64,000 bases of DNA from an uncultured Gemmatimonadota bacterium (GTDB lineage Bacteria; Gemmatimonadota; Gemmatimonadetes; Gemmatimonadales; Gemmatimonadaceae). The DNA lies in contig CAMLIT010000004.1 in NCBI GenBank assembly GCA_946480295.1, positions 12,090 through 76,089 on the forward strand. Direction: 5' to 3'. Every line of letters begins with the position of its first letter. The stretch's first letter is position 1. Below, piece by piece: positions 17,685 to 59,346 of this stretch. The notes beneath the pieces are model-generated. The model made no database searches, was not told the DNA's origin, and saw only the letters and a program-made list of their open reading frames with translations. Made by a program: the position numbers and the translations under genes.

Positions 17685-17725
17685 GTGTTATGCCCGCTCG
17701 AGCGAGGATGGCTACGCACGGCGCG
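17685..17725 (+). repeat. Dispersed repeat core, copy A
   Basis: GTGTTATGC, 20 variable bases, then ACGCACGGCGCG. It differs from copy B by one base in the left box. The variable part contains a small inverted repeat (CGCTCGAGCG). Confidence 0.75.
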
Positions 17726-17938
17726 ATCGGACCTTCTCGCGCCACCGCTGCCCCCTTATCCGGCCAGCATCCAACGACCAGGCGCGAATTGAACAGACAC
17801 ATCGTGCGAACCGGCGCGAATGGGGGGAGCGGTGGGGTAGCCGGGAGCCGGACCCGCCGCTGGGTGCGAGGAGCTCTCGCGCCACGCGGCGCGATCCGCG
17901 CCGATCCGCTCCGCATCCGTCCAATCCGTGTCCCCTTC

Positions 17939-17979
17939 GTGTGATGCCGGCCCGGGGGAGGAGCCCCACGCACGGCGCG
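17939..17979 (+). repeat. Dispersed repeat core, copy B
   Basis: GTGTGATGC, 20 variable bases, then ACGCACGGCGCG; same orientation as copy A and 254 bp downstream of it. Confidence 0.75.
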
Positions 17980-18029
17980 CCGAAGCCAGGGTTGCACGCC
18001 TCCCGCCTCCCGCCTCCCGCCTCCCGCCC

Positions 18030-18863
18030 TCACCCCACCCCCAACCTCCTCTCCAACGCCTCCCTCCTCGACCGGCTCACCCGCAACCTCGCCCCGCTCC
18101 GCAGCACGACCTCGTAGTCGCCCCCGGGCGCCTTGAGCAGCGTGTCCACGAGATCCAGCCGCACGAGCGCGGAGCGGTGCACGCGGAAGAACTGGTTCGG
18201 GTCCAGCCGCTCCTCCAGCGACTGCATCGACTCGCGGATCACGTACCGGCGGTCGCCGACGTGGAGCTCGGCGTAGGGGCCGTCCGCCGTGATGTAGTCG
18301 ATGTCCGACACGGGGACGACGCGCACCTTGCCCTTCATCTCCACCGCGATGCGCTCGAGGTAGGGCGGCCGACCGCCCGCGCCGGCGTTCGCGGTCGGCG
18401 ACCCCTCGCCCGGGGGGGCGATCGGTGCACCGGCGCCGCCGCTCCCCGCCAGCACCGCCATGAGCTGTCGGCGCAGGTCGCCCATCTGCCGCAGCTCGAG
18501 CAGCCGGCGCGCGCGGGCGAACGCCTGCTCGAAGCGCTCGTCGTCGAACGGCTTCACGAGGTAGTCCACCGCGGCGAGGTCGAACGCCTTCAGCGCGTAC
18601 TGGTCGTACGCGGTGACGAAGATGGTGGCCGGCATCGCGTCCACGCCGACCGCGCGGACGACGTCGATCCCCGTCCGGCCGGGCATCTGCACGTCGAGGA
18701 AGACGAGGTCCGGGTGGAGGCGGCGGATGAGCTCCACCGCGGCATCCCCGTCTCCCGCGGTGCCGACCACCTCGACGTCGGGCTGCTCGCGCAGCAGGTC
18801 CTCGAGGCGCTGCCGCGCGAGAGGCTCGTCGTCGGCGACGAGGACGCGGATCGGGGTGGGCAT
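18030..18863 (-). CDS. LytTR-family response regulator
   Basis: A 277-residue two-domain regulator. Residues 5-120 are a receiver domain with the acidic pair DDE (11-13), phospho-acceptor Asp57 in FLDVQMPG and Lys104 in VKPF. A Gly/Pro-rich linker (about 138-165) leads to a LytTR DNA-binding domain (about 170-275) with VSDIDYITADGPYAELHV and the FFRVHRSALVR block. It is co-transcribed with the sensor kinase 11 bp upstream. The divergent spacer beyond the kinase gene carries a pair of LytTR-type direct repeats, so it probably controls the export operon starting at 20223 and possibly its own. Confidence 0.95.
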   Translation of the reverse strand: MPTPIRVLVADDEPLARQRLEDLLREQPDVEVVGTAGDGDAAVELIRRLHPDLVFLDVQMPGRTGIDVVRAVGVDAMPATIFVTAYDQYALKAFDLAAVDYLVKPFDDERFEQAFARARRLLELRQMGDLRRQLMAVLAGSGGAGAPIAPPGEGSPTANAGAGGRPPYLERIAVEMKGKVRVVPVSDIDYITADGPYAELHVGDRRYVIRESMQSLEERLDPNQFFRVHRSALVRLDLVDTLLKAPGGDYEVVLRSGARLRVSRSRREALERRLGVG

Positions 18864-18874
18864 CGGCGTCGTGC

Positions 18875-20035
18875 CTAACGAGCGGCCGCCGCCGCGGCGT
18901 GCAGGTCGGCGGCGGTGTGGTACGGGATCCGCACCTCCGCCAGCGCGCCGCCGTCGGTGCTCGCGTGCAGCGTGAACGCGGCCGCGTCGCCGTAGAGCTG
19001 CTCCAGCCGCGCGACGGTGTTGCGGATCCCGACCCCCGTGGACGGCGCGCCGGGCTCCGGCCCGCCCGGACCGTTGTCGCGCACCCGCAGCACGAGCGTG
19101 CTCCCCTCCACCGTCGCCTCGATCGCGACGCGTCCCACCCCCTCCACGCGGCTGCTCCCGTGCTTGATCGCGTTCTCCACGATCGGCTGCAGCACGAGGT
19201 TGGGCACGAGCGCGTCGCGGGCGCGCGCCTCGATGTCCGTCGCCACCTCGAGCCGTCCCTGGAAGCGGATCTGCATGATCTCCACGTAGCGGGCGAGGAG
19301 CTCCAGCTCGCGCTCGAGCGGGATCTCCTGCTCGGTCGCGCCCTCGATCGTGTGCCGCAGCAGCTCGCTCAACCGGGAGATCATCCGGCGTACGCCGCGC
19401 GGGTCCCGCTCGACGAGCGACGAGATCGCGTGCAGGGTGTTGAAGAGGAAGTGCGGGTCGAGCTGCCGGCGCAGCGCGTCGAGCCGCGCTTCCGCGAGCT
19501 GGGCCTCCAGCCGCGCCGTCTCGGCCGCCAGGCGCACCGATTCCTCCCGGCGCGCGCGATAGCGCAGCGAGAAGTCCCGCGCCAGGCCGGCGGCGAGCAC
19601 TCCCATGTAGATCACCAGCTCGTTGAGGAACCAGAGCCGGCGTGCCGCCGAGAGCAGCGTCATCGGCGGGAAGCGTCGCGGGCCAGGCGGCGGCGGGAGG
19701 AGCGCGACGCGCAGCGCGGCGATCGCGACGTCCACGCCAATCGCGATGACGATGCCCGCGCCGAGCAGGAGCGCGATGCGCGCCGCGCGGCTCCCCCGCT
19801 CGACGCTGTACCGGCTCGCCAACCAGAACACGAGCGGCGTGAGCAGCGCCCACGCGTACGCCTCGATGAACGCGAGCGCGACGAAGGCGGAGGACGCCGT
19901 GCTCCGCAGTCCACCGCCGCGCGGATCGAGCAGCCGGTTCGCCGACATGAGCATCGCCATGAACGTCCAGAACGCGACGATCAGGACGAGCTCGCGGCGG
20001 CTCAGCCGTACGGCAGTGGTGTTCGGGTCGGTCAC
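18875..20035 (-). CDS. LytS/YehU-type sensor histidine kinase
   Basis: A 386-residue inner-membrane kinase. It has about four membrane helices (around residues 15-35, 48-73, 85-110 and 135-152), a coiled-coil (155-190), the His_kinase motif QLDPHFLFNTL with phospho-acceptor His195, and a C-terminal HATPase domain (VENAIKHG N-box, DNGPG, GVGIRNTVARL G-box). It lacks an extracytoplasmic sensor domain, so the signal is probably sensed in the membrane. The start is GTG at 20035 behind GGTGAG. It phosphorylates the LytTR regulator encoded 11 bp downstream. Confidence 0.93.
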   Translation of the reverse strand: MTDPNTTAVRLSRRELVLIVAFWTFMAMLMSANRLLDPRGGGLRSTASSAFVALAFIEAYAWALLTPLVFWLASRYSVERGSRAARIALLLGAGIVIAIGVDVAIAALRVALLPPPPGPRRFPPMTLLSAARRLWFLNELVIYMGVLAAGLARDFSLRYRARREESVRLAAETARLEAQLAEARLDALRRQLDPHFLFNTLHAISSLVERDPRGVRRMISRLSELLRHTIEGATEQEIPLERELELLARYVEIMQIRFQGRLEVATDIEARARDALVPNLVLQPIVENAIKHGSSRVEGVGRVAIEATVEGSTLVLRVRDNGPGGPEPGAPSTGVGIRNTVARLEQLYGDAAAFTLHASTDGGALAEVRIPYHTAADLHAAAAAAR

Positions 20036-20099
20036 GGTCTCACCCCGCGTGCGACGGTCGTGCCAGCCAGCCCCGTCTGGATTACGCGCCGAGCCCGCC

Positions 20100-20132
20100 T
20101 GCCGTTCGTGACGGCTGCGTGCCGTTCATGAC
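20100..20132 (+). promoter_or_regulatory. LytTR-type direct-repeat binding site
   Basis: Two 13-bp copies TGCCGTTCGTGAC (20100-20112) and TGCCGTTCATGAC (20120-20132) differ at one base and are spaced 20 bp apart, two helical turns. The inner 9-mers GCCGTTCGT and GCCGTTCAT fit the LytTR consensus [TA][AC][CA]GTTN[AG][TG] at all but the first position. They lie in the spacer between the kinase gene and the MacA-type gene, 91 bp before its start. Confidence 0.7.
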
Positions 20133-20222
20133 ATGCACGTGCAAGTGGCCCTGCGCGCGCCGTTTGGCGGCGTCGAACGCGATACAGTGGGAGAGCGAAG
20201 AACGACATCTCGAGGGAATCAC

Positions 20223-21524
20223 ATGAAGAACATTCGCATCACAGCGACCGCCGCAATCCTCGTGATCGGCGCGGGGACCGCCTGGTTCTACCATCGTGCC
20301 GAAGCGCACGAGGCGCCGGCGTACCGGACGGCGGTCGTCCAGCACGGCAACCTGCAGTCGAGCGTGTCGGCGACCGGCACCTTGAGCGCGGACACGACGG
20401 TCCAGGTCGGGACCCAGGTGTCGGGGCAGGTCAGCGCCATCTACGTGGACTTCAACGCCCACGTGAAGAAGGGGCAGCTCCTCGCGCGCATCGACCCCAC
20501 GCTGCAGGAGCAGGCGGTGCAGGACGCGCAGGCCGGGCTCGACAAGGTGCGCGCGCAGCTCCAGCAGGCGCAGAGCGAGTACGGGCGCGAGAAGCAGCTC
20601 TACGACGCGAAGGTCGTCACGGCGAGCGAGTTCAGCGCGGCGCAGTCGACGTATCTCGCCGCGCAGGCCGAGATGAAGTCGGCGGACGTGGCGCTCCAGC
20701 GCGCGCAGAAGAACCTCGGCTACACCTACATCCACGCGCCGATCGACGGCGTGGTCGTCGAGCGCAACGTGGACGTCGGCCAGACGGTGGCCGCGAGCCT
20801 CTCCGCGCCGCAGCTCTTCCTGATCGCCAACGACCTTGGCCGGATGCAGATCCTCGCGTCGGTGGACGAGAGCGACATCGGGCAGATCCAGCTCGGGCAG
20901 CCGGTGAGCTTCACCGTGCAGTCGTACCCGAACGAGACGTTCTCGGGCACCGTGAAGCAGGTGCGCCTGCAATCGAAGACGCAGGACAACGTCGTGAACT
21001 ACACCGTGGTCGTCGACGTGCGGAACACGAAGAACAAGCTGCTTCCGGGCATGACCGCCACGGTGCAGTTCCAGACGGGCGAGGCGAACGACGTGCTGAT
21101 CGTGCCCAACGCGGCGCTGCGCTTCCGGCCGACGCCGGAGATGCTGGCGGCGGCGGGGATCACGCCGGGCGCGACGCGCGGCGGCCGTGATTCCACGGCG
21201 CGCGGCGGCGGCGCCACCGGCGGCAGCGGCGCGGCGCGATGGAGCGGCATGGGCGGCGGCGCGTCCGCGCGCGGCGGCCAGGGCACGGGGTCGAGCGGCA
21301 ATCACGCCATGCTCTGGGTCATGAAGAACGGCAAGCCGACGCCGGTGCGCGTGCAGACGGGGCTCACCGACGGCCAGAACACGGTCGTCAGCGGCAACGG
21401 GCTCACGGCGGGGACGCCGGTGATCATCGGCATCACGGGCGGTGCCACCAGCACCGCGACGGCGAATCCGCTGCAGCCGCAGGGCGGGATGCGCCGTGGC
21501 CCCGGCGGGCCGGGAGGCTTCTGA
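20223..21524 (+). CDS. MacA-type periplasmic adaptor protein
   Basis: A 433-residue membrane-fusion adaptor with a single N-terminal membrane anchor. A biotinyl-lipoyl half motif (VQVGTQVSGQVSAIYVDFN), a long coiled-coil hairpin (about residues 95-155) and the second half motif IHAPIDGVVVERNVDVGQTV follow, then beta-barrel and membrane-proximal domains. A low-complexity Gly/Ser/Ala/Arg insert (about residues 315-360) and a Gly-rich tail are unusual. ATG at 20223 follows GAGGGA. Its stop overlaps the start of the ATPase gene (TGATG). It should link the MacB-type ABC exporter to an outer-membrane channel; no TolC gene is in this operon. Confidence 0.92.
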   Translation: MKNIRITATAAILVIGAGTAWFYHRAEAHEAPAYRTAVVQHGNLQSSVSATGTLSADTTVQVGTQVSGQVSAIYVDFNAHVKKGQLLARIDPTLQEQAVQDAQAGLDKVRAQLQQAQSEYGREKQLYDAKVVTASEFSAAQSTYLAAQAEMKSADVALQRAQKNLGYTYIHAPIDGVVVERNVDVGQTVAASLSAPQLFLIANDLGRMQILASVDESDIGQIQLGQPVSFTVQSYPNETFSGTVKQVRLQSKTQDNVVNYTVVVDVRNTKNKLLPGMTATVQFQTGEANDVLIVPNAALRFRPTPEMLAAAGITPGATRGGRDSTARGGGATGGSGAARWSGMGGGASARGGQGTGSSGNHAMLWVMKNGKPTPVRVQTGLTDGQNTVVSGNGLTAGTPVIIGITGGATSTATANPLQPQGGMRRGPGGPGGF

Positions 21525-22366
21525 TGAAGACGGAGGAGAACGTGACGGACAGGCCCGTCATCCGGATCGCGAACGTGAAGAAGGTCTACCGCATGGGCGA
21601 GAACGAGGTGTTCGCACTGCGTGGGGTGGACCTGACGGTCCGCGCCGGCGAGATGATCGCGGTGATGGGCTCCTCCGGCTCCGGCAAGTCCACGCTGATG
21701 AACATCCTCGGCTGCCTCGACGTGCCGAGCGAGGGCGAGTACTGGCTCGACGGCACGCGGGTGGACAACATGACGAAGAACCAGCTCGCCGACATCCGCA
21801 ACGCGAAGCTCGGCTTCGTGTTCCAGGGGTTCAACCTCCTGGCGCGGACGAGCGCGATCGACAACGTCGAGCTGCCGCTGCTCTACGACCGCAGCGGCCG
21901 GAAGCGCGACACGAAGGCCCTCGCCACCGACGCGCTGCGGCGCGTCGGTCTCGGCGATCGGCTCGACCACCAGCCGAGCGAGCTCTCGGGGGGACAGCAG
22001 CAGCGCGTGGCGATCGCCCGCGCGCTCGTGACCTCGCCGACGCTCCTCCTGGCCGACGAGCCCACCGGTAACCTCGACAGCCGCATGACGATCGAGGTGA
22101 TGGCGCTCTTCCAGGAGCTCAACGACCAGGGGATCACGATCGTGCTCGTGACGCACGAGCCGGACGTGGCACGGTACGCGAAGCGGATCGTGGAGGTGAA
22201 GGACGGCCGGATCCTGCGCGACCACCCGGTCGCCACCCGCCGGCGCGCCGCCGACGACCTGCTGGAGCTCGTGAACCACACGGGTGTTGACGCGGCGCCG
22301 AGCGAGTTGCGGGAGGAAACGCTTCCCGCTTCCCACGTCCCGCGTCCCGCGAAGGAGGCCGCATGA
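21524..22366 (+). CDS. MacB/LolD-type ABC exporter ATPase
   Basis: A 280-residue ATP-binding subunit with Walker [11 protein letters not shown]-loop FVFQGFNLL, signature LSGGQQQR, Walker [13 protein letters not shown] and switch His in VTHEP. It energises the FtsX-like permease encoded immediately downstream (ATGA overlap). In E. coli MacB these two parts are one polypeptide; here they are split. The last 40 residues extend beyond the usual ABC end and include [12 protein letters not shown], which is encoded by a run of C-rich heptamers, so the tail looks like a repeat that has been absorbed into the gene. Confidence 0.94.
22321..22348 (+). repeat. G3N4 heptamer array inside the 3' end of the ATPase gene
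   Basis: Four consecutive 7-mers GCTTCCC, GCTTCCC, ACGTCCC, GCGTCCC (on the complement GGG-N4 units). They are in coding sequence, just before the ribosome site of the permease gene. Confidence 0.65.
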
Positions 22367-23580
22367 AGCAGTCGACGCTCTTCAAGGTCGCGACGCAGAG
22401 CATCCGCAAGAACAAGATGCGCACGCTGCTCACGATGCTCGGCATCGTCATCGGCGTGGGCGCCGTGATCGTCATGGTGGCGGTCGGCCAGGGGGCGCAG
22501 TCGCGCATCGCGGACCAGATCAACAACCTCGGGACGAACCTGATCATGGTCACCCCGGGCGCGGTCACGCAGGGCGGCGTCAACCAGGGCGCGGGCGCCC
22601 TCAACAAGCTCACCCCGGCCGACGCCGAGAAGCTGAAGCGCGAGGCCACCACGCTCACGGGCGTGTCGCCGGTGATCATGACGCACGCGCAGGTGATCGC
22701 GAACCAGAACAACTGGCGGACGACGGTGAACGGCGTCTCCGGGGACTATCCGATCATCCGCGACTGGAACGTCTCGTCCGGCGCCTACTTCACCGACCAG
22801 GACGTGCGCTCGGCGCGGAAGGTGGCGGTGATCGGCGCGACGGTGGCGAACAACCTCTTCCCGGGGATGGACCCCGTGGGCTCGGAGATCCAGATCGGCC
22901 ACGCGCCCTTCACCGTGATCGGCGTGCTCGCCGCGAAGGGGCAGACGTCGAGCGGGCAGGACATGGACGACGTGATCCTCATGCCGTACACGACGGCGCA
23001 GGAGCGGTTGAGCGGCTTCATGCGGCTCGGCGCGATCCTCGCCAGCACCTCGTCGCCGGACGAGATCCCGGCGGCGCAGAACGAGATCGAGCAGATCATG
23101 CGCGAGTCGCACCGGCTGGCCGACGGCGTGGATGACGACTTCACCGTCCGCAACCAGACGGAGCTGGCGCAGGCGGCCGAGGGCGCGACGGCGGTCATGA
23201 CCTATCTGCTCGCCGCGATCGCGTCGGTGTCGCTCCTCGTCGGCGGCATCGGGATCATGAACATCATGCTCGTCTCGGTGACGGAGCGGACGCGCGAGAT
23301 CGGCGTCCGCATGGCGATCGGCGCGCGCGGCTCGGACGTGCTCACGCAGTTCCTCGTCGAGAGCGTCGTCATGAGCACGCTCGGTGGACTGATCGGCCTC
23401 GGCACCGGCTTCGCCGGCGCGGCGCTGCTCGGCCACCTGACCGGCTGGGCGACGTCCACTCCGCCCGGCGCCGCGCTGATCGCCGTCGGCTTCTCGGCGC
23501 TGGTCGGCGTGTTCTTCGGCTTCTATCCCGCGCGCAAGGCGGCGGCGCTGAATCCGATACAGGCCTTGAGGTATGAGTGA
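22363..23580 (+). CDS. MacB/FtsX-type ABC permease
   Basis: A 405-residue inner-membrane permease. It has one N-terminal helix with the MacB wording [22 protein letters not shown], a large periplasmic MacB_PCD domain (about residues 50-265) and three C-terminal helices (FtsX domain, about 285-400) with [20 protein letters not shown] and the ending [17 protein letters not shown]. This is the transmembrane partner of the upstream ATPase. AAGGAGG precedes its ATG at 22363. With the MacA-type adaptor it should expel or export a substrate such as a peptide, macrolide or lipid from the periplasm. Confidence 0.95.
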
Positions 23581-23829
23581 ACCGCTGAACGAGAGGGTCG
23601 GGGGTCGAGGGTCGAGAAGGACACCAGATAGGTGATAGGAACGAGCAACTAGTGACGCCGTGATCAGTTCCTGATTCCTATGCCACTAACGCACTGCTCT
23701 CGACCGAAGCTCGGCTGAGCGCGACCGGCCACGGGCGCCGGCGGCGGCAGCATTGGCGCGCTGGGATGCGTATCTTGAGACGGGGCCCGGGATGACCGGC
23801 CCCGTTCCCACCTCAGGAGGCCAACGCTC
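23581..23829 (+). other. Spacer before heme receptor gene
   Basis: The 249 bp are AT-richer than the surroundings. There are three GGGTCGN heptamers (23595-23615) 14 bp after the permease stop. A 7-bp inverted repeat ATAGGAA/TTCCTAT has arms at 23635-23641 and 23675-23681. Near the receptor gene ACGGGGCC/GGCCCCGT can form a hairpin just before an AGGAGG ribosome site. I looked for a cobalamin riboswitch box and did not find one. Confidence 0.45.
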
Positions 23830-26097
23830 GTGGAGTCCCGCCAGCCATCCCGTTCGTCCCGCGGCGCCTTCGCGTCCATCGCGCTCGTCGTGCTGCTCGG
23901 CGTCGTGCTCGCCATCCCCTCGTCCGTGCTCGCCCAGGCCACGGGGACCATCACCGGTACGGTGACGGAGACGCCGGCGCTCCCCCTCGCGGGCGCGCGG
24001 GTGACCGTGGTGGGGGTGCAGCGCGCGGCGGTGACCGACGAGCGGGGGCGGTACCGGCTCGATGGCCTCGCCGCCGGATCTTACGAGGTCACCGCCACGT
24101 CCATCGGTCACGAGCCGGCGCATCGCACGGTGCGGGTGACGGTCGGCTCCACGACCACCGCCGATTTCGCGCTGCGGCGCGGCTCGGTGCTCCTGTCGCA
24201 GATGGTCGTCAGTGCGACGCGAACCGCGCAGCCGGCGAACGAGGTCGCGGCCACCGTGAACGTGCTCTCGCCGGAGCAGGTGCGGAGCGCGCCGGCCCGG
24301 ACCACGGACGATCTCCTTCGCGAGATGCCGGGCGTCGAGCTGCCGCGCACGTCGAGCACCGTCTCGGGGCCGGAGGAGATCGTCTCCATCCGCGGCGCCG
24401 ACGAGGGGCGGACGCTCGTGCTCCTCGACGGCGTGCCGCTCAACGATCCGTGGGGCGAGTGGATCCAGTGGAACCGCGCTCCGCGTTTCCAGCTCGACCA
24501 CGTCGAAGTGCTCGAGGGGGGCGGCTCGAGCCTCTACGGCAATTACGCGATGGGTGGCGTCGTGTCGATCACGAGCCGGCCGATCGTGCAGCACGGGTAC
24601 GAGGTCACGGCGAGCGGCGGGAGCCGCGGCGCCGCGGACGTCTCGCTCTACGGCAGCGGCGTGACGCGCGCCCTCGGCTACTCGCTCGGCGCCGACTACG
24701 GCACCGGCGGCGGCTACAACACCCTGCGGCCGGACCAGCGCGGCCCCGTGGACCAGGCGAGCCAGACGACGCGCCGGAACGTCACCGGCCGCGCGGAGTA
24801 CGCGCTCGGCGCCGGTCGCACGGTGTTCGCGTCCGCCAACTGGTTCGACGACGACCGCAGCCTCGGCACCCCGCTCACGGAGCCGAACCGCCGGCGCATC
24901 GCCAGCGGCGCCCTCGGCGGCAACTTCGGTTCCGTCCTCGGCGGCACCGTGCAGTTGCGCGCCTACGGCCAGCACCAGCAGTACGACAGCCGCTCGTCGA
25001 TCGTCAACGCGCAGCGCACCAGCGAGTCGCCGAACGTGGCGCAGTCCATCCCCAGCCACGACCTCGGCGGCTCGGTGCAGTGGTCGCGCGCCGCCGGAAT
25101 GTTCGAGTCGATCGCCGCGGGAGCGGACTACCGCTACATGGTCGGCGAGATGGACGAGACGGTGTATCCCGCGGGGGGCGCCACGCGCGATGCGGGTGGG
25201 CGGCAGCAGGTCGGCGGCGTGTTCGTGCAGGGCGTGCTCGCGCCGGTCGAGCCGCTCCGCATCGAGGCGAGCGCGCGCGTCGACGACTGGAAGAGCTACG
25301 CCGGCTCGACCACGAACACCGCCGGCGCCACGACGCACTACGACGCGAAGGCCAACTCCGCCTTCGCGCCGCGCATCGGGGTGCGGTACGCGCTCCTGCC
25401 CGGGCTCACGCTGCGCGGCTCGTACTACCAGGCGTTCCGTGCGCCGACGCTCTCCGAGGAGTACCGGACGTTCTACGCGGGGCCGAACACCTTTATGGGG
25501 AATCCGGAGCTGACCCCCGAGCACCTCACCGGGTGGGACGCGGGATTCGACTGGGAGCCGGCGACGAGCGTGGAGCTGCGCGCGACGGTGTTCGGCAACC
25601 GCTATCGCGACCTCGACGACTTCACCTTCGTGCGCCCGGATCCGGCCACCGGCGGCGTCGTGCTCCAGCGGCAGAACCTCGGCCGCGCGCGCGCAAACGG
25701 CGCGGAGGCGGAGGTCGGCGTGCGCGTGCTGCCGCAGCTCATGCTCTCCGCGAGCTACAACTACGACGACGCACGCGTGGTGAGCACGGGCAAGCCGGTG
25801 AACCGCGTGCCCCTCCAGCGCGGCTCGGCGCGCGTGACGTGGAGCGCGCCGTCCATCGCGACGGTGAACGCGATCTGGCGCTACGAAGGGCCGAACCACG
25901 CGCTCGGCGGCGCGCGGATGGCGCCGTACGCGCTCGTCGACCTCGACGCGCGGCGCGCGATCCGGCGCGACGTGGACCTCTTCGTGAGCGTCGAGAATCT
26001 CTTCGACCGACAGTACACTGCGAACTGGGCCGGCCCGCTCGAGTACCTGGGGCTCCCCCGCACCCTGCGCGCCGGACTCTCCGTCGGCAGCTTCTGA
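23830..26097 (+). CDS. TonB-dependent receptor of the heme uptake operon
   Basis: A 755-residue outer-membrane receptor. It has a signal peptide ending SVLAQA, a carboxypeptidase-like regulatory domain (GTITGTVTETPALPLAGARV), a plug (IRGADEGRTLVLLDGVPLN) and a 22-strand barrel ending GLSVGSF with a terminal Phe. FRAP (~residue 535) and NPEL (~557) are the boxes typical of heme receptors, but no histidine lies between them. The GTG start at 23830 is fixed by AGGAGG nine bases upstream; no ATG fits. The next three genes are a heme-type ABC importer, so heme or a related chelate is the likely cargo. Confidence 0.88.
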   Translation: MESRQPSRSSRGAFASIALVVLLGVVLAIPSSVLAQATGTITGTVTETPALPLAGARVTVVGVQRAAVTDERGRYRLDGLAAGSYEVTATSIGHEPAHRTVRVTVGSTTTADFALRRGSVLLSQMVVSATRTAQPANEVAATVNVLSPEQVRSAPARTTDDLLREMPGVELPRTSSTVSGPEEIVSIRGADEGRTLVLLDGVPLNDPWGEWIQWNRAPRFQLDHVEVLEGGGSSLYGNYAMGGVVSITSRPIVQHGYEVTASGGSRGAADVSLYGSGVTRALGYSLGADYGTGGGYNTLRPDQRGPVDQASQTTRRNVTGRAEYALGAGRTVFASANWFDDDRSLGTPLTEPNRRRIASGALGGNFGSVLGGTVQLRAYGQHQQYDSRSSIVNAQRTSESPNVAQSIPSHDLGGSVQWSRAAGMFESIAAGADYRYMVGEMDETVYPAGGATRDAGGRQQVGGVFVQGVLAPVEPLRIEASARVDDWKSYAGSTTNTAGATTHYDAKANSAFAPRIGVRYALLPGLTLRGSYYQAFRAPTLSEEYRTFYAGPNTFMGNPELTPEHLTGWDAGFDWEPATSVELRATVFGNRYRDLDDFTFVRPDPATGGVVLQRQNLGRARANGAEAEVGVRVLPQLMLSASYNYDDARVVSTGKPVNRVPLQRGSARVTWSAPSIATVNAIWRYEGPNHALGGARMAPYALVDLDARRAIRRDVDLFVSVENLFDRQYTANWAGPLEYLGLPRTLRAGLSVGSF

Positions 26098-26104
26098 TCC
26101 CGCC

Positions 26105-33873: not shown

Positions 33874-34506
33874 TCAGGCGGCCTGGCGGCTCGATGCCGT
33901 GGCTCCGAGCAGGCGCGCGTCCGGGCCGGCCGAGCGCGAGCGGACCACGACCATGAGCGCCCACGCCCCGAGCGCGAAGGCGACGCCGAGCAGCAGCCCG
34001 CCGGGCGCGGGCCAGGATGCGGCGCGGAAGTTCAGGATCTGCTTCACCCCGATCATCGGCGGCTGGTACACCATCCCGGGCACCTTGATGATGGCGTGCT
34101 CGGTGTCGAGGTGGTGGCCGAAGTCGTACGTCCACCGCCAGAAGTCGGCGAGCCCCGCCCCACCGCTCACGGCGAGGGCGGCGATCCAGGCGTAGAGCGG
34201 TCCGCGCCGACCGACGAGCGCGACGAGGAGCCCGAGGACGACGAGCGCGCCGACGATCCACGGCATGTAGTGCAGCTCCGGCATCGCCGACGGGTCGATC
34301 GTCTTCATCCCGATGTAGTGATTCAGCTCGTTGATGTTCGCGAGATCCTGCTGCCGGATGCCCTCGACGGTGTTCAGCCGGATCTGCATCCCGAGCCCCT
34401 CGGGGTACTGCGGGGCGATGAGGCTGATGCGCCAGATGGGAAGCGCGAGGGTGGCGGCGAGGAGCAGGGCGGCCATGAGCGTGAGCGTTCTGGCGAGCTT
34501 CGGCAT
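33874..34506 (-). CDS. Integral membrane protein, function unknown
   Basis: A 210-residue inner-membrane protein with four likely helices (about residues 5-25, 92-112, 118-138 and 178-200). A distinctive extracytoplasmic segment is present: LIAPQYPEGLGMQIRL and then NELNHYIGMKTI. Proteins with this APQYPEGL...LNHYIGM pattern are, to my knowledge, often found near nosL/nosZ or copper-handling genes in Bacteroidota and relatives, but none are adjacent here apart from the cupredoxin-Rieske pair. The start ATG at 34506 follows GGAAGGA. It is co-transcribed with the FMN split-barrel gene. Confidence 0.75.
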   Translation of the reverse strand: MPKLARTLTLMAALLLAATLALPIWRISLIAPQYPEGLGMQIRLNTVEGIRQQDLANINELNHYIGMKTIDPSAMPELHYMPWIVGALVVLGLLVALVGRRGPLYAWIAALAVSGGAGLADFWRWTYDFGHHLDTEHAIIKVPGMVYQPPMIGVKQILNFRAASWPAPGGLLLGVAFALGAWALMVVVRSRSAGPDARLLGATASSRQAA

Positions 34507-34691
34507 GGAGATCGTCCTTCCGCGGCAGGGAGAGGTGGGAAAAGCGGAGCGGCCTGCTCGGGAATGTCGCTTTGGTGCCGAAGCGGTTCCGTCGGGAGGA
34601 AGGGGGAAGATGTGAGAGGGATCCGCGAGGCGTGGGGTCAGGGAATGGCCGACAGGGTGGGGATGCGGTGCGTCCCGCTCGTCGGGCTCGT

Positions 34692-34733
34692 CGCGCCGTG
34701 CGTTGCGCTCCGCGCGCCGCGACGGCATCACAC
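34692..34733 (-). repeat. Dispersed repeat core, copy C
   Basis: On the minus strand GTGTGATGC (34725-34733), 21 variable bases, ACGCACGGCGCG (34692-34703). The preceding 41 bases on that strand align without gaps to those before copy A, and sequence near 34855-34895 matches that before copy B (GCGAATTGA, GGCGCGAA). Confidence 0.75.
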
Positions 34734-34952
34734 GCAGGTGAGTCGCGGATGATCACGAATGAACTGCCGAATCCGTGCGAATCGCTCCGGGTATGGCGAC
34801 GCCTCCCCTCGCCGCGGCCGGCCCGGGACCCGTCGACCTCACCCCTGTCCCCATGTTCGCGCCGATCCGCACGAGCTCCGATCAATTCGCGTCGGCTCTT
34901 TGGAAACCGCCCTGATAGAGTGGCCCACGGCACGACGCGGGGCCGGAACGCA

Positions 34953-35027
34953 ACGAGGGACGAGGCCTCGTCCCTCGTCCCTCGTCCCCACCGCCTCCCG
35001 CCTCCCGCCTCCCGCCTCCCGCCTCCC
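34953..35027 (-). repeat. Heptamer arrays (GGGACGA)n and (GGGAGGC)n after RND pump gene
   Basis: On the minus strand, starting 4 bp after the pump stop codon: five GGGAGGC units (34993-35027), then three GGGACGA units (34968-34988). The latter run into a perfect 26-bp palindrome made of two head-to-head ACGAGGGACGAGG arms (34953-34978). Confidence 0.8.
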
Positions 35028-35031
35028 GCGA

Positions 35032-51241: not shown

Positions 51242-51304
51242 GAGTCGCCACCCGACCGGCGGCCGGCGAGCGCGAGATCGCGCGACGGCGCGCTACTTGT
51301 ACAG

Positions 51305-51331
51305 GACGCCCGGGTGAAGAGCCCGGGCGTC
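51305..51331 (+). terminator. Terminator after DUF4142 gene
   Basis: A perfect 10-bp stem GACGCCCGGG/CCCGGGCGTC with a 7-nt loop, followed by GTCATTC. It separates this gene from the small lipoprotein operon. Confidence 0.7.
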
Positions 51332-51363
51332 GTCATTCGCGCCCACTCACCAACGGAGGACGT

Positions 51364-52702: not shown

Positions 52703-52776
52703 AGTTCTTGCTTTGGCGCGGATGGGCTTCAGATGCACCGATGGCATCCAGTCACCCCTTCTCGAGGACATCCACA

Positions 52777-53076
52777 ATGAAGAAGACCTCACGCATCCTC
52801 ATCGGCAGCGCCATGCTGTTCAGCACCGCCGCGTTCCTCGGCGCGTGCAAGAGCAACGCGAACAACGCCGATACGACGTCGGCCGGCGGGTCGCTGGGCG
52901 CGAGCACGGGCGCGATGGCCCCGGCTCCGGCTCCGGCGCCGGCCCCGGCGACGGGCGCCAGCACGGGCGCGATGCCTGGTATGGGCGCGAGCACGGGCGC
53001 CGCGGGCGCCAGCACGGGCGCGGCCATGCCGGATACGGCCAAGAAGAAGACCACGCACAAGACGAGAAAGCACTAG
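52777..53076 (+). CDS. Low-complexity lipoprotein with GASTGA repeats and basic tail
   Basis: A 99-residue lipoprotein (lipobox FLGAC, Cys24). The mature chain consists of repeats: six GASTGA-like units interrupted by an (AP)n block (PAPAPAPAPA), and it ends KKKTTHKTRKH, a strongly basic tail. It looks like a flexible tether that reaches from a membrane to an anionic partner such as peptidoglycan, lipopolysaccharide or nucleic acid, though function is unknown. The DNA repeats are near-identical, so repeat number may vary between strains. A hairpin terminator follows. Confidence 0.78.
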   Translation: MKKTSRILIGSAMLFSTAAFLGACKSNANNADTTSAGGSLGASTGAMAPAPAPAPAPATGASTGAMPGMGASTGAAGASTGAAMPDTAKKKTTHKTRKH

Positions 53077-53102
53077 GCCCGAGCTCGTCAACTGCCTCGA
53101 GC

Positions 53103-53130
53103 ACGCCCCCGGCCAGTCGGCCGGGGGCGT
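53103..53130 (+). terminator. Terminator after low-complexity lipoprotein gene
   Basis: A perfect 12-bp stem ACGCCCCCGGCC/GGCCGGGGGCGT with an AGTC loop, followed by TCGCGTTCC. Strong stem, weak T-tract. Confidence 0.75.
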
Positions 53131-53210
53131 TCGCGTTCCGGCGGCTCCCTCGTAACCTTCCGTCCAGCCATTCGTTATACCGGGAGACCCCACCCACCTC
53201 TCGAGGGAGC

Positions 53211-55994
53211 ATGTCCCCGTCTCATCTCCGCCGACCCTGGCGCGCGCTGGGCGCCGCCGGCATCATCGCCGGCGCGCCGCTGCTCGCCGTGCCCGCCGTC
53301 GCCCAGCGCCCCGCCGCCGCCCCCGTCCGCGGCGCGTCCGTCGAGGGGATCACGCAGTACACGCTCGCCAACGGCCTGCGCGTGCTCCTCTTTCCCGACA
53401 AGTCGAAGTCGCAGACGACGGTGAACGTGACCTATCTCGTCGGCTCGCGAAACGAGGGCTATGGCGAGACGGGGATGGCGCACCTGCTCGAGCACATGAT
53501 GTTCAAGGGGGCGGCGCACCACGCCAACCCCTCCGCCGAGATCACGAACCACGGCGCGCAGTTCAACGCGAGCACGGAGTTCGACCGCACGAACTACTTC
53601 GAGACCTTCGCCGCGGCCGACTCGAACCTGGCGTGGGCGCTCGATCTCGAGGCCGATCGGATGGTGAACAGCTTCATCGCGAAGAAGGACCTCGAGTCCG
53701 AGTTCTCCGTGGTGCGGAGCGAGTTCGAGATCGGCGAGAACAACCCGCTCCAGGTCACGCTGAAGCGCGTGCTCGGGAGCGCGTATCTCTTCCACGCCTA
53801 CGGCCACATGCCCATCGGCTCGCGCTCGGACATCGAGCACGTGCCGATCGACAAGCTCCAGGCGTTCTACCACAGGTACTACCAGCCGGACAACGCGGTC
53901 CTCACGATCGCCGGCAACTTCGACGAGCAGCGGGCGCTCGCGCTGGTGCAGCAGAAGTTCGGCGCCATTCCCCGCCCGACGCGGGTGCTCGACTCGACGT
54001 ACACGGTCGAGCCGACGCAGGACGGCGAGCGCGAAGCGATCGTGCGCCGCACGGGCGACGTGCAGCTCATGATCGCGTACTACCACGTGCCGGGCGGCGC
54101 GCACCCCGACTTCGCCGCGATCGACGTCCTCACGCGCATCCTCGGCGACTCGCCCAACGGGCGGCTCTACCAGGCGCTGGTCGCCACGAAGCTGGCGGCG
54201 GCGGTGGGCGCGCAGAACCTGCAGCAGCACGATCCGGGCGGCCTCTTCACGATCGTCCAGCTCCGGAAGGAGCAGTCGCTCGACAGCGCGAAGGCGGCGA
54301 TGCTCACGGCGATCCACGAGATCGCGACGACGAAGCCGCCCACGCCCGAGGAGGTCGAGCGGGCGAAGACGGCGGTCGTGAAGGACTTCGACATGGCGCT
54401 GAACCGGCCGAACACGCTCGGCCTCCAGCTCAGCGAGTGGATGAAGATCGGCGACTGGCGGCTCTTCTTCGTCCACCGCGACCGCGTGAAGGCGGTCACG
54501 CCGGCCGACGTGCAGCGCGTCGCGGCGGCGTATCTCAAGCCGTCGAACCGCACCATCGGCGAGTTCATCCCGACGGACAAGCCGGATCGCGCGGAGATCC
54601 CGCCCAACCCGAACGTGGACTCGATCGTCGCGCACTACAAGGGCAACGCGGCGGTGGCGGCGGGCGAGGCGTTCGATCCCTCGCCGGCGAACATCGAGTC
54701 GCGCCTGACGCGACACACGCTGGCGTCCGGCATGAAGCTCGCCCTGCTGCCGAAGAAGAATCGCGGCGAGGCGGTGAACGCGGTCGTCACGCTGCGCTTC
54801 GGGACCGAGCAGTCGCTGACGAACCGGGCGACGCTGGCCAACTACGCCGCGCTGATGCTCATGCGCGGCACGAAGGAGCACACCCGCCAGCAGATCCAGG
54901 ACGAGCTCGACCGGCTGCAGGCGCGCATGACCGTGACGCCGTCGATCGGGGCGGTGCGCGTCTCGATCGAGACGACGCGGCCGAACCTGCCGGCGGTGCT
55001 CGAGCTCGCCGCCGAGGTGCTGCGCGACCCGGTGTTCGACCAGAAGGAGCTGGAGCAGCTCCAGGGGCAGCAGATCGCGGCCGCCGAGGCGAACCGCGGC
55101 GAGCCGGTGATGCTCGCCCAGATCGCCCTGCAGCAGACGCTGAACGATTATCCGCTCGGCCACCCGCGCCACGTGAACTCGATCGACGAGTCCATCGCGG
55201 CGGCGAAGGCGGTGACCGCCGCCGAGCTGCGGCGCTTCCACGACGAGTTCTACGGCGCGAACGCGGGCGAGATGGTCGTCGTCGGCGACTTCGACGCCGC
55301 CGAGATCTCGAAGCTGGGCGCGGAGCTGTTCGGGTCGTGGAAGAGCCGGCAGCGCGTGGCGCCGGTGCCCGAGCGCCTGGCGACGACGACGGGGACGACG
55401 AGAGTCATCGAAACCCCGGACAAGGCGAACGCCGTCTTCTTCGCCGGTGAGAACTTCAGGATGCAGGACACCGATCCCGACTATCCGGCGTTCGTCGTCG
55501 CGGACTACCTCATGGGCGGCAGCCCGCTGGAGAGCCGCCTCGCCGTGCGCCTGCGGCAGAAGGAGGGGCTGAGCTACCAGGTGCAGGCGATGGCGATCGC
55601 GGGATCGACGGAGCCGGTCGCCCACTGGCTCGCCGTCGCGGTGTCGAACCCGGTGAACGCGGACAAGGTGCAGGCCGGCTTCTCCGACGAGGTGTCGAAG
55701 GCGCTGACCGACGGCTTCACCGCCGACGAGGTGCAGAAGGCGAAGACCGCGATCCTCCAGGCGCGCCGGGTCCAGCGGGCGAACGATGGGCTCCTCGCCG
55801 GCATGATCGACAACGAGCTGCACCTCGGCCGCACGATGCAGTTCGACGCGGCGCTCGAGGCGAAGATCGCCGCCCTGACGCCGGAGGAGGTGACCGCCGC
55901 GTTCCGGAAGGCGATCGACCCGGCGAAGCTCGTCATGGTGAAGGCGGGGGACTTCGCGAAGGCCAGGCAGGCGGGCGCGGCGACGAAGCCCTGA
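53211..55994 (+). CDS. Secreted M16-family zinc metallopeptidase (two fused halves)
   Basis: A 927-residue exported peptidase with a signal peptide ending AVAQR. The first M16 half (about 45-470) has the inverted zinc motif HLLEH (His91, Glu94, His95) and the third ligand Glu171 in VVRSEFE. The second half (about 490-910) keeps the fold (LRFGTEQSL, RLRQKEGLSYQVQAMA) but no zinc site, as in pitrilysin-type enzymes made of an active and an inactive half. It degrades peptides in the periplasm. ATG at 53211 follows GAGGGAG. It is a single-gene unit. Confidence 0.94.
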   Translation: MSPSHLRRPWRALGAAGIIAGAPLLAVPAVAQRPAAAPVRGASVEGITQYTLANGLRVLLFPDKSKSQTTVNVTYLVGSRNEGYGETGMAHLLEHMMFKGAAHHANPSAEITNHGAQFNASTEFDRTNYFETFAAADSNLAWALDLEADRMVNSFIAKKDLESEFSVVRSEFEIGENNPLQVTLKRVLGSAYLFHAYGHMPIGSRSDIEHVPIDKLQAFYHRYYQPDNAVLTIAGNFDEQRALALVQQKFGAIPRPTRVLDSTYTVEPTQDGEREAIVRRTGDVQLMIAYYHVPGGAHPDFAAIDVLTRILGDSPNGRLYQALVATKLAAAVGAQNLQQHDPGGLFTIVQLRKEQSLDSAKAAMLTAIHEIATTKPPTPEEVERAKTAVVKDFDMALNRPNTLGLQLSEWMKIGDWRLFFVHRDRVKAVTPADVQRVAAAYLKPSNRTIGEFIPTDKPDRAEIPPNPNVDSIVAHYKGNAAVAAGEAFDPSPANIESRLTRHTLASGMKLALLPKKNRGEAVNAVVTLRFGTEQSLTNRATLANYAALMLMRGTKEHTRQQIQDELDRLQARMTVTPSIGAVRVSIETTRPNLPAVLELAAEVLRDPVFDQKELEQLQGQQIAAAEANRGEPVMLAQIALQQTLNDYPLGHPRHVNSIDESIAAAKAVTAAELRRFHDEFYGANAGEMVVVGDFDAAEISKLGAELFGSWKSRQRVAPVPERLATTTGTTRVIETPDKANAVFFAGENFRMQDTDPDYPAFVVADYLMGGSPLESRLAVRLRQKEGLSYQVQAMAIAGSTEPVAHWLAVAVSNPVNADKVQAGFSDEVSKALTDGFTADEVQKAKTAILQARRVQRANDGLLAGMIDNELHLGRTMQFDAALEAKIAALTPEEVTAAFRKAIDPAKLVMVKAGDFAKARQAGAATKP

Positions 55995-56351
55995 CGGACG
56001 CCCGGCGCACCGAACGGCGGGCGTGGCGCCACGAGACACGCCCGCCCCTCGCCGGCTAGCGGCATGCGAAGGCGGCGGCCCGGTGCCCCCCGCGCCGTTC
56101 GCGTCTTCGCTGCTGGACGCGCCGTCGCGCGTGTCCGCCTGCCGACGCCCGCGACCCGACGGCCTCAGGCACTGACGTCGGATCGACTCACCGAACCGAG
56201 GGTGGGGAGATCTGGCATCTGGAACGGCGAGCCGTTTCCCTCAAATTGTACTCGATCATCGGGCGTCTGCTGACTGACCAGCGAGCGGCGCCGAGGCCAC
56301 CTTGCCCGATGCGAGCCGGTCACCGGCCGCGTGCACGCGGCGGGAGGGAGC
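55995..56351 (+). other. Spacer between peptidase and aldehyde dehydrogenase genes
   Basis: 357 bp without a credible gene. A 10-bp perfect hairpin (56016-56025 / 56037-56046) lies 22 bp after the peptidase stop and is the likely terminator. An AT-richer patch around 56225-56265 (CTCAAATTGTACTCG) probably holds the promoter of the downstream pair; I cannot assign boxes. A GGGAGGGAG ribosome site precedes 56352. Confidence 0.5.
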
Positions 56352-57971
56352 ATGGGCACGGACGCACGCTCGTTCACCGAGACTCGTTATGACGCTCCCG
56401 CCGCGCGCAGCATGAGCACGGGGCGCGTGACGTCGGCGCTGCTCGACCGCCTGGGTCGACGGGTCGTGCTCGCCCCCGGGGAGCACGCAAGCCTCGAGGT
56501 GCGGATCCCGGCGACGGGGCAGGTGCTGGGGAGCATCCCGCGCGGTACGCCCACGGACGTGGACGCGGCGATCGCGCGAGCGCGGGCGGCGCAGCCGCTC
56601 TGGCGCGCGCTCAGCTTCGGCGAGCGCGCGCGCATCATGCTCCGCTTCCACGACCTGGTGTTGTCGCGGCAGGAGGAGATCCTCGACCTCATCCAGCTCG
56701 AGAGCGGCAAGGCGCGCTCGCACGCGTTCGAGGAGGTTGGGGACGTGGCGAACGTCGCCCGCTACTACGCGCTGCATGCCGAACGATTCCTCCACCCGCG
56801 GCGGCGCCGCGGCGCGCTGCCGGCGCTGACGATGACGTGGGAGCTGCGCCATCCGATCGGGGTCTGCGGCTTCATCGTGCCGTGGAACTACCCGCTGAAC
56901 CTCGCGGTGACCGACGCCATCCCCGCGCTGATGGCGGGGAACGCGGCGCTGATCAAGCCGGACCACCAGACGTCGTTCACCGCGCTCTGGGCGGCCGACC
57001 TGCTGTACGAGGCGGGGCTCCCGCCCGACGTGATGCCGGTCGTCACGGGGGTGGGGCCCGAGCTCGGACCGGCGATCGTCGGCGGCGTGGACTTCGTGAT
57101 GTTCACCGGGAGCACGCGCACGGGGAAGACGATCGCCTCGCTCGCCGCGCCGCGACTCATCGGCAGCTCCCTCGAGCTCGGCGGGAAGAACGCGATGCTC
57201 GTGCTCGACGATGCCGACGTGGAGCGAGCCGTGGACGGCGCGGTGCGCGGATGCTTCGTCGGCGCGGGGCAGGTGTGCGTCTCCATCGAGCGGATCTTCG
57301 TGCAGTCGCACGTGTGGAACCGGTTCGTGAGCCGGTTCGCCGAGGCGGCGAAGCAGCTGAAGCTGTCGCCCGCGCTCGACTACTCGGGGGAGATGGGATC
57401 GCTGACGAGCGAGCGGCAGATGACCACGGTGCGGGAGCACCTCGCGGACGCGCTGGCGAAGGGCGCGACGCTGCTGGCGGGGGGCAAGGCGCGCCCGGAC
57501 GTCGGCCCGCTCTTCTTCGAGCCGACGATCCTCACGGGCGTGACGCCCGACATGCGCTGCTTCGCCGAGGAGACGTTCGGGCCGGTCGTCGCGCTCTACC
57601 GCTTCGAGGACGTCGAGGACGCGCTGCACATCGCCAACGCGACGGCGTATGGCCTGAGCGGCAGCGTCTGGACGCGCGACGTGCGGAAGGGGATGGCGGT
57701 CGCGGCGCGGCTCCAGGTCGGCTCGGTGAACGTGAACGAGGCGTACGCGGCGACGTGGGGCTCGGTGGACGCGCCGATCGGCGGCTTCAAGGAATCGGGG
57801 CTGATGCGGCGCCACGGCCGCGACGGGATCCTGAAGTACACGGAGGCGCAGACGATCGCCGTGCAGCGGCTGCTGCCGATGGCCGCACCCACGGGGATCA
57901 GCGCCAGGACATACAGTCGCGTCATGACCCGGGCGCTGCGGCTGCTGCGACGCGTACCGGGCCTGCGCTAG
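56352..57971 (+). CDS. Aldehyde dehydrogenase (succinate-semialdehyde type)
   Basis: A 539-residue NAD(P)-dependent aldehyde dehydrogenase. It has NAD-site PWNYPLNL and FTGSTRTGK, general base Glu275 in LELGGKN, nucleophile Cys309 in GQVCVSIER, and the ending GGFKESGLMRRHG. The wording resembles actinobacterial GabD2-type succinate-semialdehyde or long-chain aldehyde dehydrogenases that carry C-terminal extensions; here about 45 residues (GISARTYSRVMTRALRLLRR) form an amphipathic, basic tail that could bind membranes. The ATG at 56352 is chosen for its ribosome site over an in-frame GTG at 56331. The reductase gene starts 9 bp after its stop. Confidence 0.9.
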   Translation: MGTDARSFTETRYDAPAARSMSTGRVTSALLDRLGRRVVLAPGEHASLEVRIPATGQVLGSIPRGTPTDVDAAIARARAAQPLWRALSFGERARIMLRFHDLVLSRQEEILDLIQLESGKARSHAFEEVGDVANVARYYALHAERFLHPRRRRGALPALTMTWELRHPIGVCGFIVPWNYPLNLAVTDAIPALMAGNAALIKPDHQTSFTALWAADLLYEAGLPPDVMPVVTGVGPELGPAIVGGVDFVMFTGSTRTGKTIASLAAPRLIGSSLELGGKNAMLVLDDADVERAVDGAVRGCFVGAGQVCVSIERIFVQSHVWNRFVSRFAEAAKQLKLSPALDYSGEMGSLTSERQMTTVREHLADALAKGATLLAGGKARPDVGPLFFEPTILTGVTPDMRCFAEETFGPVVALYRFEDVEDALHIANATAYGLSGSVWTRDVRKGMAVAARLQVGSVNVNEAYAATWGSVDAPIGGFKESGLMRRHGRDGILKYTEAQTIAVQRLLPMAAPTGISARTYSRVMTRALRLLRRVPGLR

Positions 57972-57980
57972 GAGCGCTCG

Positions 57981-59069
57981 ATGTCGACCATTCTCTTCAC
58001 CGGCTTTCCCGGGTTCCTCGGCTCGGAGCTCGTCGCCCGCGTACTCCGGCGCGGCGGGACCGACGTCGTCGCCTGCCTCGTGCAGCACAAGTTCCTCGAG
58101 CTGGCGCGTGCGCGCGCCGCGGAGATCGTCGCGAAGGAGGGCATCGCGCCGGAGCGGCTGCGCCTCGTCGAGGGGGACATCACGCTGCCGGACCTCGGGC
58201 TCACGGACGCGGCCGCGCTCCAGGCGGAGGTGGTCGAGATCTTCCACCTCGCGGCGGTCTACGACCTGGAGGTGCGCCGCGACGTGGCGATGCGCGTGAA
58301 CGTGGAGGGGACGCGCAACGTGCTCGACTTCGCCGAGCGCTGCCCGCGGCTGCGGCGACTGCAGTACGTGAGCACCTGCTACGTGAGCGGCCGCTACGAG
58401 GGCGAGTTCCGGGAGGAGGACCTCGAGAAGGGGCAGGCGTTCAACAACTACTACGAGGAGACGAAGCACCTCGCGGAGCTGGAGGTACGCGCCCGGATGG
58501 CGAAGGGGCTTCCGGCCACCATCTACCGTCCGGCGATCGTGGTGGGGGACAGCACGACGGGCGCGACGCAGAAGTACGACGGGCCGTACTTCGTGATGCA
58601 GTGGCTCCTGCGGCAGCCGAAGCTGGCGGTGCTGCCGGTGGTGGGGCGGACGCGGGAGATGGAGCTGAACCTGGTGCCGCGCGACTTCGTGGTGAACGCC
58701 ATCGACTACCTGAGCACGCGGCCGGAATCGTCAGGCAGGACGTACCAGCTCGCGGATCCGGCGCCGCCGACGATCCACGACCTGATCGGGATCCTCGGCG
58801 CGGCGACGGAGCGCCGGATCGTGCGGGTGCCGCTCCCGCTCGGCGTGGCCAAGGGCGCGCTGGCGCACGGCCCGGGGGTGTATCGCCTGATGAAGATCCC
58901 GCCGAGCGCGATCGACTACTTCGTGCATCCGACGCGGTACGACACGCATAACGCGGACGCGGACCTGGCGCCGAGCGGGATCCGGGTGCCGGCGTTCGCG
59001 AGCTACGCGGGGAGCCTCGTGCGGTACATGCGCGCGCATCCGGAGGTGGGGGCGGGGGCGATGGTGTAG
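57981..59069 (+). CDS. Extended SDR / fatty-acyl reductase-like NAD(P)-binding protein
   Basis: A 362-residue extended short-chain dehydrogenase of the NAD_binding_4/thioester-reductase type. It has nucleotide motif TGFPGFLG at residues 7-14, VEGDIT, HLAAVYDLEV, active-site YEETK, and RPAIVVGDSTTG. Such domains reduce acyl-thioesters to aldehydes, or act as epimerases. Being 9 bp downstream of an aldehyde dehydrogenase with a basic amphipathic tail, a lipid acyl/aldehyde conversion is a reasonable hypothesis. An array of heptamer repeats begins one base after its stop codon. Confidence 0.85.
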   Translation: MSTILFTGFPGFLGSELVARVLRRGGTDVVACLVQHKFLELARARAAEIVAKEGIAPERLRLVEGDITLPDLGLTDAAALQAEVVEIFHLAAVYDLEVRRDVAMRVNVEGTRNVLDFAERCPRLRRLQYVSTCYVSGRYEGEFREEDLEKGQAFNNYYEETKHLAELEVRARMAKGLPATIYRPAIVVGDSTTGATQKYDGPYFVMQWLLRQPKLAVLPVVGRTREMELNLVPRDFVVNAIDYLSTRPESSGRTYQLADPAPPTIHDLIGILGAATERRIVRVPLPLGVAKGALAHGPGVYRLMKIPPSAIDYFVHPTRYDTHNADADLAPSGIRVPAFASYAGSLVRYMRAHPEVGAGAMV

Positions 59070-59070
59070 C

Positions 59071-59136
59071 GGGAGGCGGGAGGCGGGAGGCGGGAGGCGG
59101 GAGGCGGGAGGCGTAGGGACGAGGGACGAGGGACGT
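59071..59136 (+). repeat. Heptamer arrays (GGGAGGC)6 and (GGGACGA)3
   Basis: Six perfect GGGAGGC units (59071-59112) start one base after the SDR stop, then three GGGACGA/T units (59116-59136). Same two units in the same order as at 35.0 kb. Confidence 0.85.
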
Positions 59137-59306
59137 GTCCGGGCTGGCTACTCTCGCCGTGCGCTTCGTCCTCGCGGATGGGGCGCGCGCCACGGGACGC
59201 GTGACCATCGAAGGTCATCCGCGGTTGGGCGGGAGGGGCTGTCGCGCCGCGGGGAGCGATCCACGTTCATCCGTGACGTTCGTCCGTGGCATCCGTGTTC
59301 CGCATC

Positions 59307-59346
59307 GTGTGATGCGTCCCCGCCGCGGAACGCGGCGCACGGCGCG
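59307..59346 (+). repeat. Dispersed repeat core, copy D
   Basis: GTGTGATGC, 19 variable bases, then GCGCACGGCGCG (one change from the other copies). It lies downstream of the heptamer arrays in the same orientation as at the other loci. The variable part is an inverted repeat (CCGCGGAACGCGG). Confidence 0.7.

Follow-up and report, generated by a model that had tools for sequence, protein, structure and literature searches.

Two-box repeats and heptamer arrays in the window

The 64,000-nucleotide stretch analysed here (the window), from contig CAMLIT010000004.1 of an uncultured Gemmatimonadota bacterium (assembly GCA_946480295.1), carries a dispersed repeat whose core consists of two conserved boxes separated by a spacer. 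A search of both strands with the pattern GTGTKATGC-N17..23-RCGCACGGCGCG yielded exactly four matches, copies A to D, at the coordinates and on the strands given by an earlier, sequence-only reading of this DNA; checked for chance matches, the pattern had no hit in 100 dinucleotide shuffles. All four copies are intergenic, as that reading had claimed, and fall into three intergenic regions delimited by a purpose-written gene caller that uses the base composition at each codon position. The suggestion that the unit is longer than its core is borne out directly by the pairwise alignments B/C, B/D and A/C, which all extend past the core. The 41 bp said to align before the A and C cores lie inside an A/C alignment of 85 columns and 79% identity, the segment reported as common to B and C is part of a 234-column blastn alignment (70.5% identity, E 8e-22), and B and D align over 129 columns (blastn, 73% identity, E 9e-15). 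A model of the four copies detects a fifth, degenerate copy, E, back to back with A (nhmmer, E 2e-5), and the flank at this copy (17529-17646) matches 17910-18023 inversely (E 4e-13). Two further features were absent from the earlier reading: ATYCGYG-type units precede the core, and every core copy has a heptamer array nearby, as close as 18 bp (B) and no farther away than about 230 bp (C). The features are as follows.

17481..18029: intergenic region with copies A and B (gene calling)
17529..17554, plus strand: heptamer array, GAGGCGG, 3.7 units, outside copy E
17572..17647, minus strand: degenerate copy E
17658..17674, plus strand: pair of ATYCGYG units inside A
17685..17725, plus strand: two-box core of copy A (pattern match)
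17757..17983, plus strand: longer unit with B, homologous to the C unit (blastn)
17939..17979, plus strand: two-box core of copy B (pattern match)
17997..18028, minus strand: heptamer array, 4.6 units, outside B, beside the stop codon of the LytTR gene (end 18030)
34507..35031: intergenic region with copy C (gene calling)
34688..34917, minus strand: longer unit with C (B/C blastn alignment)
34692..34733, minus strand: two-box core of copy C (pattern match)
34744..34760, minus strand: pair of ATYCGYG units inside C
34966..34988, minus strand: second heptamer array, 3.3 units (CCTCGTC on the plus strand)
34991..35029, minus strand: heptamer array, 5.6 units, beside the stop codon of the RND gene (end 35032)
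59069..59113, plus strand: heptamer array, GCGGGAG, 6.4 units, its first base being the last of a stop codon
59070..59426: intergenic region with copy D (gene calling)
59115..59135, plus strand: second heptamer array, AGGGACG, 3 units
59219..59346, plus strand: longer unit with D, homologous to B (blastn)
59263..59300, plus strand: ATCCGTG-type units inside D, partly degenerate (59263-59288 is a 13-bp tandem repeat)
59307..59346, plus strand: two-box core of copy D (pattern match)

The neighbouring arrays are tandem 7-bp units in intergenic DNA, and a 14-mer of two GCGGGAG units, with at most one mismatch allowed, is confined within the window to the three copy-bearing regions. The copies themselves are decayed. 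Left-right symmetry as high as that of C and D was reached by 15 and 7 of 1000 shuffles, and as high as that of A/E and B/F by 250 and 578, so that terminal inverted repeats, a trait of miniature inverted-repeat transposable elements, exceed shuffles in C and D and not in A/E or B/F. Self-complementarity of the spacer, another element of the earlier description, is not supported: the four core stretches of 60-62 nt fold no better than shuffles (z 0.20, -1.55, -0.28 and -0.05), and a core hairpin with a covarying spacer stem was dropped as a candidate, no z falling below -1.6. Rfam gave no match above gathering score in the window. Copy C, when translated and compared with proteins, gave two candidates, neither at E 0.01 or better. 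The window genes at 16875-17480 and 33874-34506, which adjoin the repeats, are without a Pfam match at E 0.001.

Relatives on the Gemmatirosa plasmids

In a collection of species genomes the exact two-box pattern was found in 39 stretches from many phyla, with a single hit each, spacers of 15 to 26 nt, and no visible unit array in the 45 bases upstream of any of them. Some of these hits represent one site, coding or other, shared by related genomes, and we judged all of them to be chance or unrelated sites, as we did the four hits in viral contigs, one of which is identical to a genome hit. The exact subfamily is therefore so far known only from the window. This bears on the possibility that the copies are immobile DNA sites with conserved boxes, which are passed on vertically and serve a nucleoid, recombination or segregation protein. 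The boxes are indeed invariant among the four copies except for one position each, while the remaining unit has diverged to 70-79% identity; the lack of credible hits elsewhere, however, and the occurrence of several unit families together in Gemmatirosa (see below) make this explanation very improbable.

The window RND gene has its closest plasmid match on plasmid 2 of Gemmatirosa kalamazoonensis (Gemmatimonadaceae; 71.8% identity over 97%). The link between the window repeats and Gemmatirosa came from the unit arrays and not from the four-copy model: three-unit arrays with 9-bp spacing match 14 and 8 times in the two Gemmatirosa plasmids and in none of 11 other genomes, while those with 10-bp spacing occur in two of the 11 and in neither plasmid. 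In the scan, which took in 1,106,233 bases of plasmid 1 and, from its start, 1,040,000 of plasmid 2, ATCCGCGTG units were seen to form divergent palindromes. Many halves of these palindromes have, outward of the last unit, a GGAG box and then GGCGCG, and the same outward order is seen directly in the window, where box 1 is followed by a partly GAGGA-like spacer and box 2. Of the 18 Gemmatirosa halves used (2 of 20 were skipped), 6 have GGCGCG at 45-55 nt beyond the last unit, compared with a mean of 0.5 and a maximum of 3 in 43 other bins of equal width; in the window this distance is 50-53 nt. A conserved outer box, which contains GGCGCG in Gemmatirosa, is thus part of the window copies too. 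It is not peculiar to them, since the family with 11-bp units has an outer 8-mer, CGTACGTG, in 48 of 54 halves.

An array finder recovered 138 inverted periodic arrays from the two plasmids and a single one from one block-shuffled plasmid 2, although the finder is incomplete and missed arrays beside one of the genes described below (GxxExxY_993). Of the 138, 123 can be assigned to seven families with units of 7 to 11 bp; the other 15, with units outside the seven named families or without two flanking genes, were excluded from the context count. Most of the classified arrays are intergenic (106/123), and these show a marked bias in orientation, with 36 in convergent, 62 in tandem and 8 in divergent regions, where intergenic regions of at least 60 bp would lead one to expect 14.8, 64.7 and 26.6 (chi-square p 3e-10). 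An array lies within 60 bp for 111 of 134 gene 3' ends vs 29 of 78 5' ends, so that inverted arrays in Gemmatirosa favour gene 3' ends.

These figures are what one would expect if the palindromes were bidirectional 3'-end elements, now immobile and kept as transcription terminators or protectors of mRNA 3' ends, and in the window, too, three heptamer arrays lie at or almost at stop codons, which belong to the genes for a LytTR regulator, an RND transporter and an NAD-binding reductase-like protein. At the cores, however, there is no T-run terminator, the one terminator-like site found (17488-17502) being outside the copies, and the core folds are no better than those of shuffles. The remaining 17 of the 123 classified arrays are inside called genes, and a function at 3' ends would leave unexplained the association with GxxExxY and S23 genes set out below. 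We thus consider this explanation unlikely. No sigma-70 promoters were found.

One of the in-gene arrays was checked, and adds to the adenylation domain of a synthetase a stretch that is lacking in the solved relatives compared (linear gramicidin synthetase chains). It is one of five in-frame inverted heptamer arrays that seemingly occupy the same loop of adenylation-like domains (NZ_CP007130.1 596515-596583, 608707-608782, 621891-621962, 625124-625198 and 638149-638223). Such in-frame arrays in synthetase domains suggest that the elements can also alter proteins.

GxxExxY and S23 genes beside inverted arrays

With models built from 30 Planctomycetota proteins each, and a cut-off of E 0.01, we found three GxxExxY loci (four fragments, one locus being in two frames) and one S23 gene on Gemmatirosa plasmid 1, and no match to either model in the first 1,040,000 bases of plasmid 2. 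For two of the three GxxExxY proteins, and for that of the S23 gene, the assignment was checked with NCBIfam; GxxExxY is TIGR04256, which we take to be a PD-(D/E)XK-type nuclease. All three GxxExxY loci adjoin inverted arrays, and the unit family is a different one at each locus. GxxExxY_437 has an ATCCGCG palindrome about 20 bp past the gene end, GxxExxY_993 is flanked on both sides by CTCTGCG palindromes, and GxxExxY_1092 has palindromes of 11-bp units on both sides, the right one followed by GCACGGCGCGA, which is close to box 2 of the window. Strict counts for these three families are 6, 32 and 28 arrays, figures that include the arrays beside the genes and miss some others. The S23 gene lies between GGGCAGGA arrays. 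At NZ_CP007129.1 993723-994168 a GxxExxY gene is split over two frames between two CTCTGCG palindromes, and the S23 protein (NZ_CP007129.1 1007580-1007942) has a weak, sub-cut-off match to the model of Avd, a protein of diversity-generating retroelements.

The association was then measured in other phyla (phylum names of the tested loci having been assigned by inference) by comparing the left flank of each gene with its inverted right flank, no unit being assumed and ParE serving as the control family. For Planctomycetota, one best match per genome was taken from 30 of the 54 (GxxExxY), 57 (S23) and 53 (ParE) positive genomes among 119. Inverse flank matches above the highest ParE score (13.5) were found at 28/30 GxxExxY and 24/30 S23 loci, and at 0/30 ParE loci. 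The best period of the matched arm was 8-11 bp in 27 of these 28 GxxExxY loci and 7 bp in 18 of the 24 S23 loci. Outward TYYGYG triplets accompanied GxxExxY genes on at least one side in 23/30 cases (S23 1/30, ParE 1/30) and on both sides in 13/30 (S23 1/30, ParE 0/30). Among the 119 genomes, 21 have ATYYGTG triplets with 10-bp spacing, one of them 92 times, and the reversed pattern matches once over all 119. Beside three decamer loci of one genome (L121-L123 of G001) there are other tandem motifs, CAGACAGA-like and CGAATTT-like, which are perhaps further array families.

All 20 listed GxxExxY loci of Desulfobacterota were compared in the same way, with one dropped for short flanks, as was one S23 locus per genome in 30 of 45 Bacteroidota genomes, with two dropped for the same reason; 15/19 and 18/28, respectively, scored above the Planctomycetota ParE maximum. 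Arrays and genes are therefore associated in Gemmatirosa and in Planctomycetota and, more weakly, in Desulfobacterota and Bacteroidota.

Such an association might also arise by homing, if the palindromes originated and spread by some other route and the GxxExxY and S23 genes were parasites that insert into or beside them. Many of the Planctomycetota genes do sit between one left and one right arm, and the Gemmatirosa arrays are far more numerous than the GxxExxY and S23 genes, both of which would suit such parasites. At two of the three Gemmatirosa GxxExxY loci, however, both flanks carry palindromes of their own instead of the arms of a split one, and the change of unit family from locus to locus also speaks against insertion of this kind, which we regard as quite improbable.

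Origin of the window repeats and comparison with known systems

We lean, if only slightly, towards the interpretation that the four window copies are decayed, gene-less members of a GxxExxY-linked foldback (inverted-array) family, lying beside S23-type heptamer arrays. In this view the two-box core probably forms the outer end of such an element, with the ATYCGYG units inside. A half-element would then run, from the centre outward, from ATYCGYG units through box 1 and a short spacer to box 2, ending in GGCGCG; intact relatives would consist of two such halves back to back, and gene-bearing relatives would have a small GxxExxY gene between or beside the arrays. Most likely the GxxExxY protein recognises the arrays or the terminal boxes of its own family and, by analogy with the proposal for RAYT proteins and repetitive extragenic palindromic (REP) sequences or REPINs, would spread gene-less copies in trans, which would settle chiefly just downstream of genes. 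This role of the protein, and that of the boxes, is what we infer from the arrangement of arrays and genes. The likeness to REP/RAYT is drawn because a small gene beside arrays has numerous gene-less relatives. The window heptamer arrays look like a second element class, linked elsewhere to S23/four-helix-bundle genes.

The earlier reading had proposed either a small non-autonomous mobile element or a structured element of the 3' untranslated region. The former, as a putatively mobile element, is supported by the link to gene-bearing relatives; as for the latter, the preference for gene 3' ends is found in Gemmatirosa, and the structured spacer stem is not supported. Among Gemmatirosa elements of two other unit families, target-site duplications of 5 bp or longer, sought at equal offsets on both sides, were seen in at most 1/19 and 1/22 elements at any offset. 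This argues against ordinary cut-and-paste transposition and leaves single-strand, copy-repair or RNA-based routes.

The missing duplications are one of several observations that weigh against a GxxExxY-linked origin. Window and Gemmatirosa differ in box 1, the four-copy model gave nothing significant on plasmid 2 (best E 0.34), the symmetry of the window copies is weak overall, and no GxxExxY or S23 gene was detected in the window at E 0.01. The array at GxxExxY_437 is on a single side only. Under a stricter threshold, set at 99% of between-locus pairs, the Planctomycetota counts fall to 21/30 for GxxExxY and 20/30 for S23 (ParE 0/30), and those of Desulfobacterota GxxExxY and Bacteroidota S23 loci, for which the control family was ParE of Planctomycetota, to 5/19 and 14/28; similar units in different loci raise this threshold. 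Across the Planctomycetota genomes, finally, ATYYGTG arrays are weakly associated with the presence of GxxExxY (13/21 vs 41/98 genomes, one-sided p 0.076).

A wider proposal, which we put forward tentatively and would not expect to hold in full, is that of a selfish foldback class that crosses phyla, in which protein and unit length are paired, a GxxExxY nuclease with 8-11 bp and an S23 four-helix protein mostly with 7 bp. Each protein would spread its own gene-less palindromes in trans, without obvious target duplication and with a preference for gene 3' ends and protein loops, and the window would hold remnants of both. If true, it would point to what GxxExxY and S23/four-helix bundle, two common protein families with no known function, may do, and likewise the short arrays of repeats near their genes, and would place a second palindrome-plus-gene system, with a different protein, beside REP/RAYT. 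One would then expect every array family to include a gene-bearing copy somewhere in the genome, and every protein to act on arrays of its own.

The six unit strings were not found in the one open-licence library searched, which also gave nothing on palindromic and tandem intergenic repeats of Gemmatimonas; its papers with GxxExxY are, by title, on other topics. The window repeat is real and kin to known small palindromic interspersed repeats, possibly with a new class behind it. The short tandemly repeated repetitive (STRR) heptamers of cyanobacteria are tandem 7-bp units in mostly intergenic positions, and the Rickettsia palindromic elements are palindromic repeats, some of them in frame inside genes. 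Compared by description, the latter resemble our elements in being palindromic and partly in frame, and differ in array structure and linked genes.

TAACTGA repeats, according to the passages cited, are also mostly intergenic tandem 7-bp units, direct repeats with one inverted case (PMC4679880). The arrays described here are like both heptamer sets in unit length and location, and unlike the TAACTGA sets, as far as those passages go, form inverted pairs and go with a gene family. The intervening sequences of 23S rRNA are relevant to the heptamer class, being described in the portions cited as small elements, termed selfish, with an S23/four-helix open reading frame and a long stem (PMC4990558, PMC11270868); on that description they reside in rRNA genes, whereas our arrays are tandem heptamers in intergenic regions and some protein genes. 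The closest parallel is with REP/REPIN sequences and RAYT, which the cited sections present as short, mostly intergenic, family-specific palindromes in many copies, together with a single small gene that is believed to mobilise them (PMC3733652, PMC8049555, PMC3686654, PMC8266576). On that evidence the two systems are alike in their multi-copy, mostly intergenic, family-specific palindromes and associated small gene. They differ in that our palindromes consist of inverted arrays, with units of 7-11 bp, and of outer boxes, no GTAG or CGTC tag is invariant in the alignment of the four window copies, and the linked gene is GxxExxY and not a Y1 transposase (RAYT, PF01797), which was matched in neither of the two Gemmatirosa plasmids.

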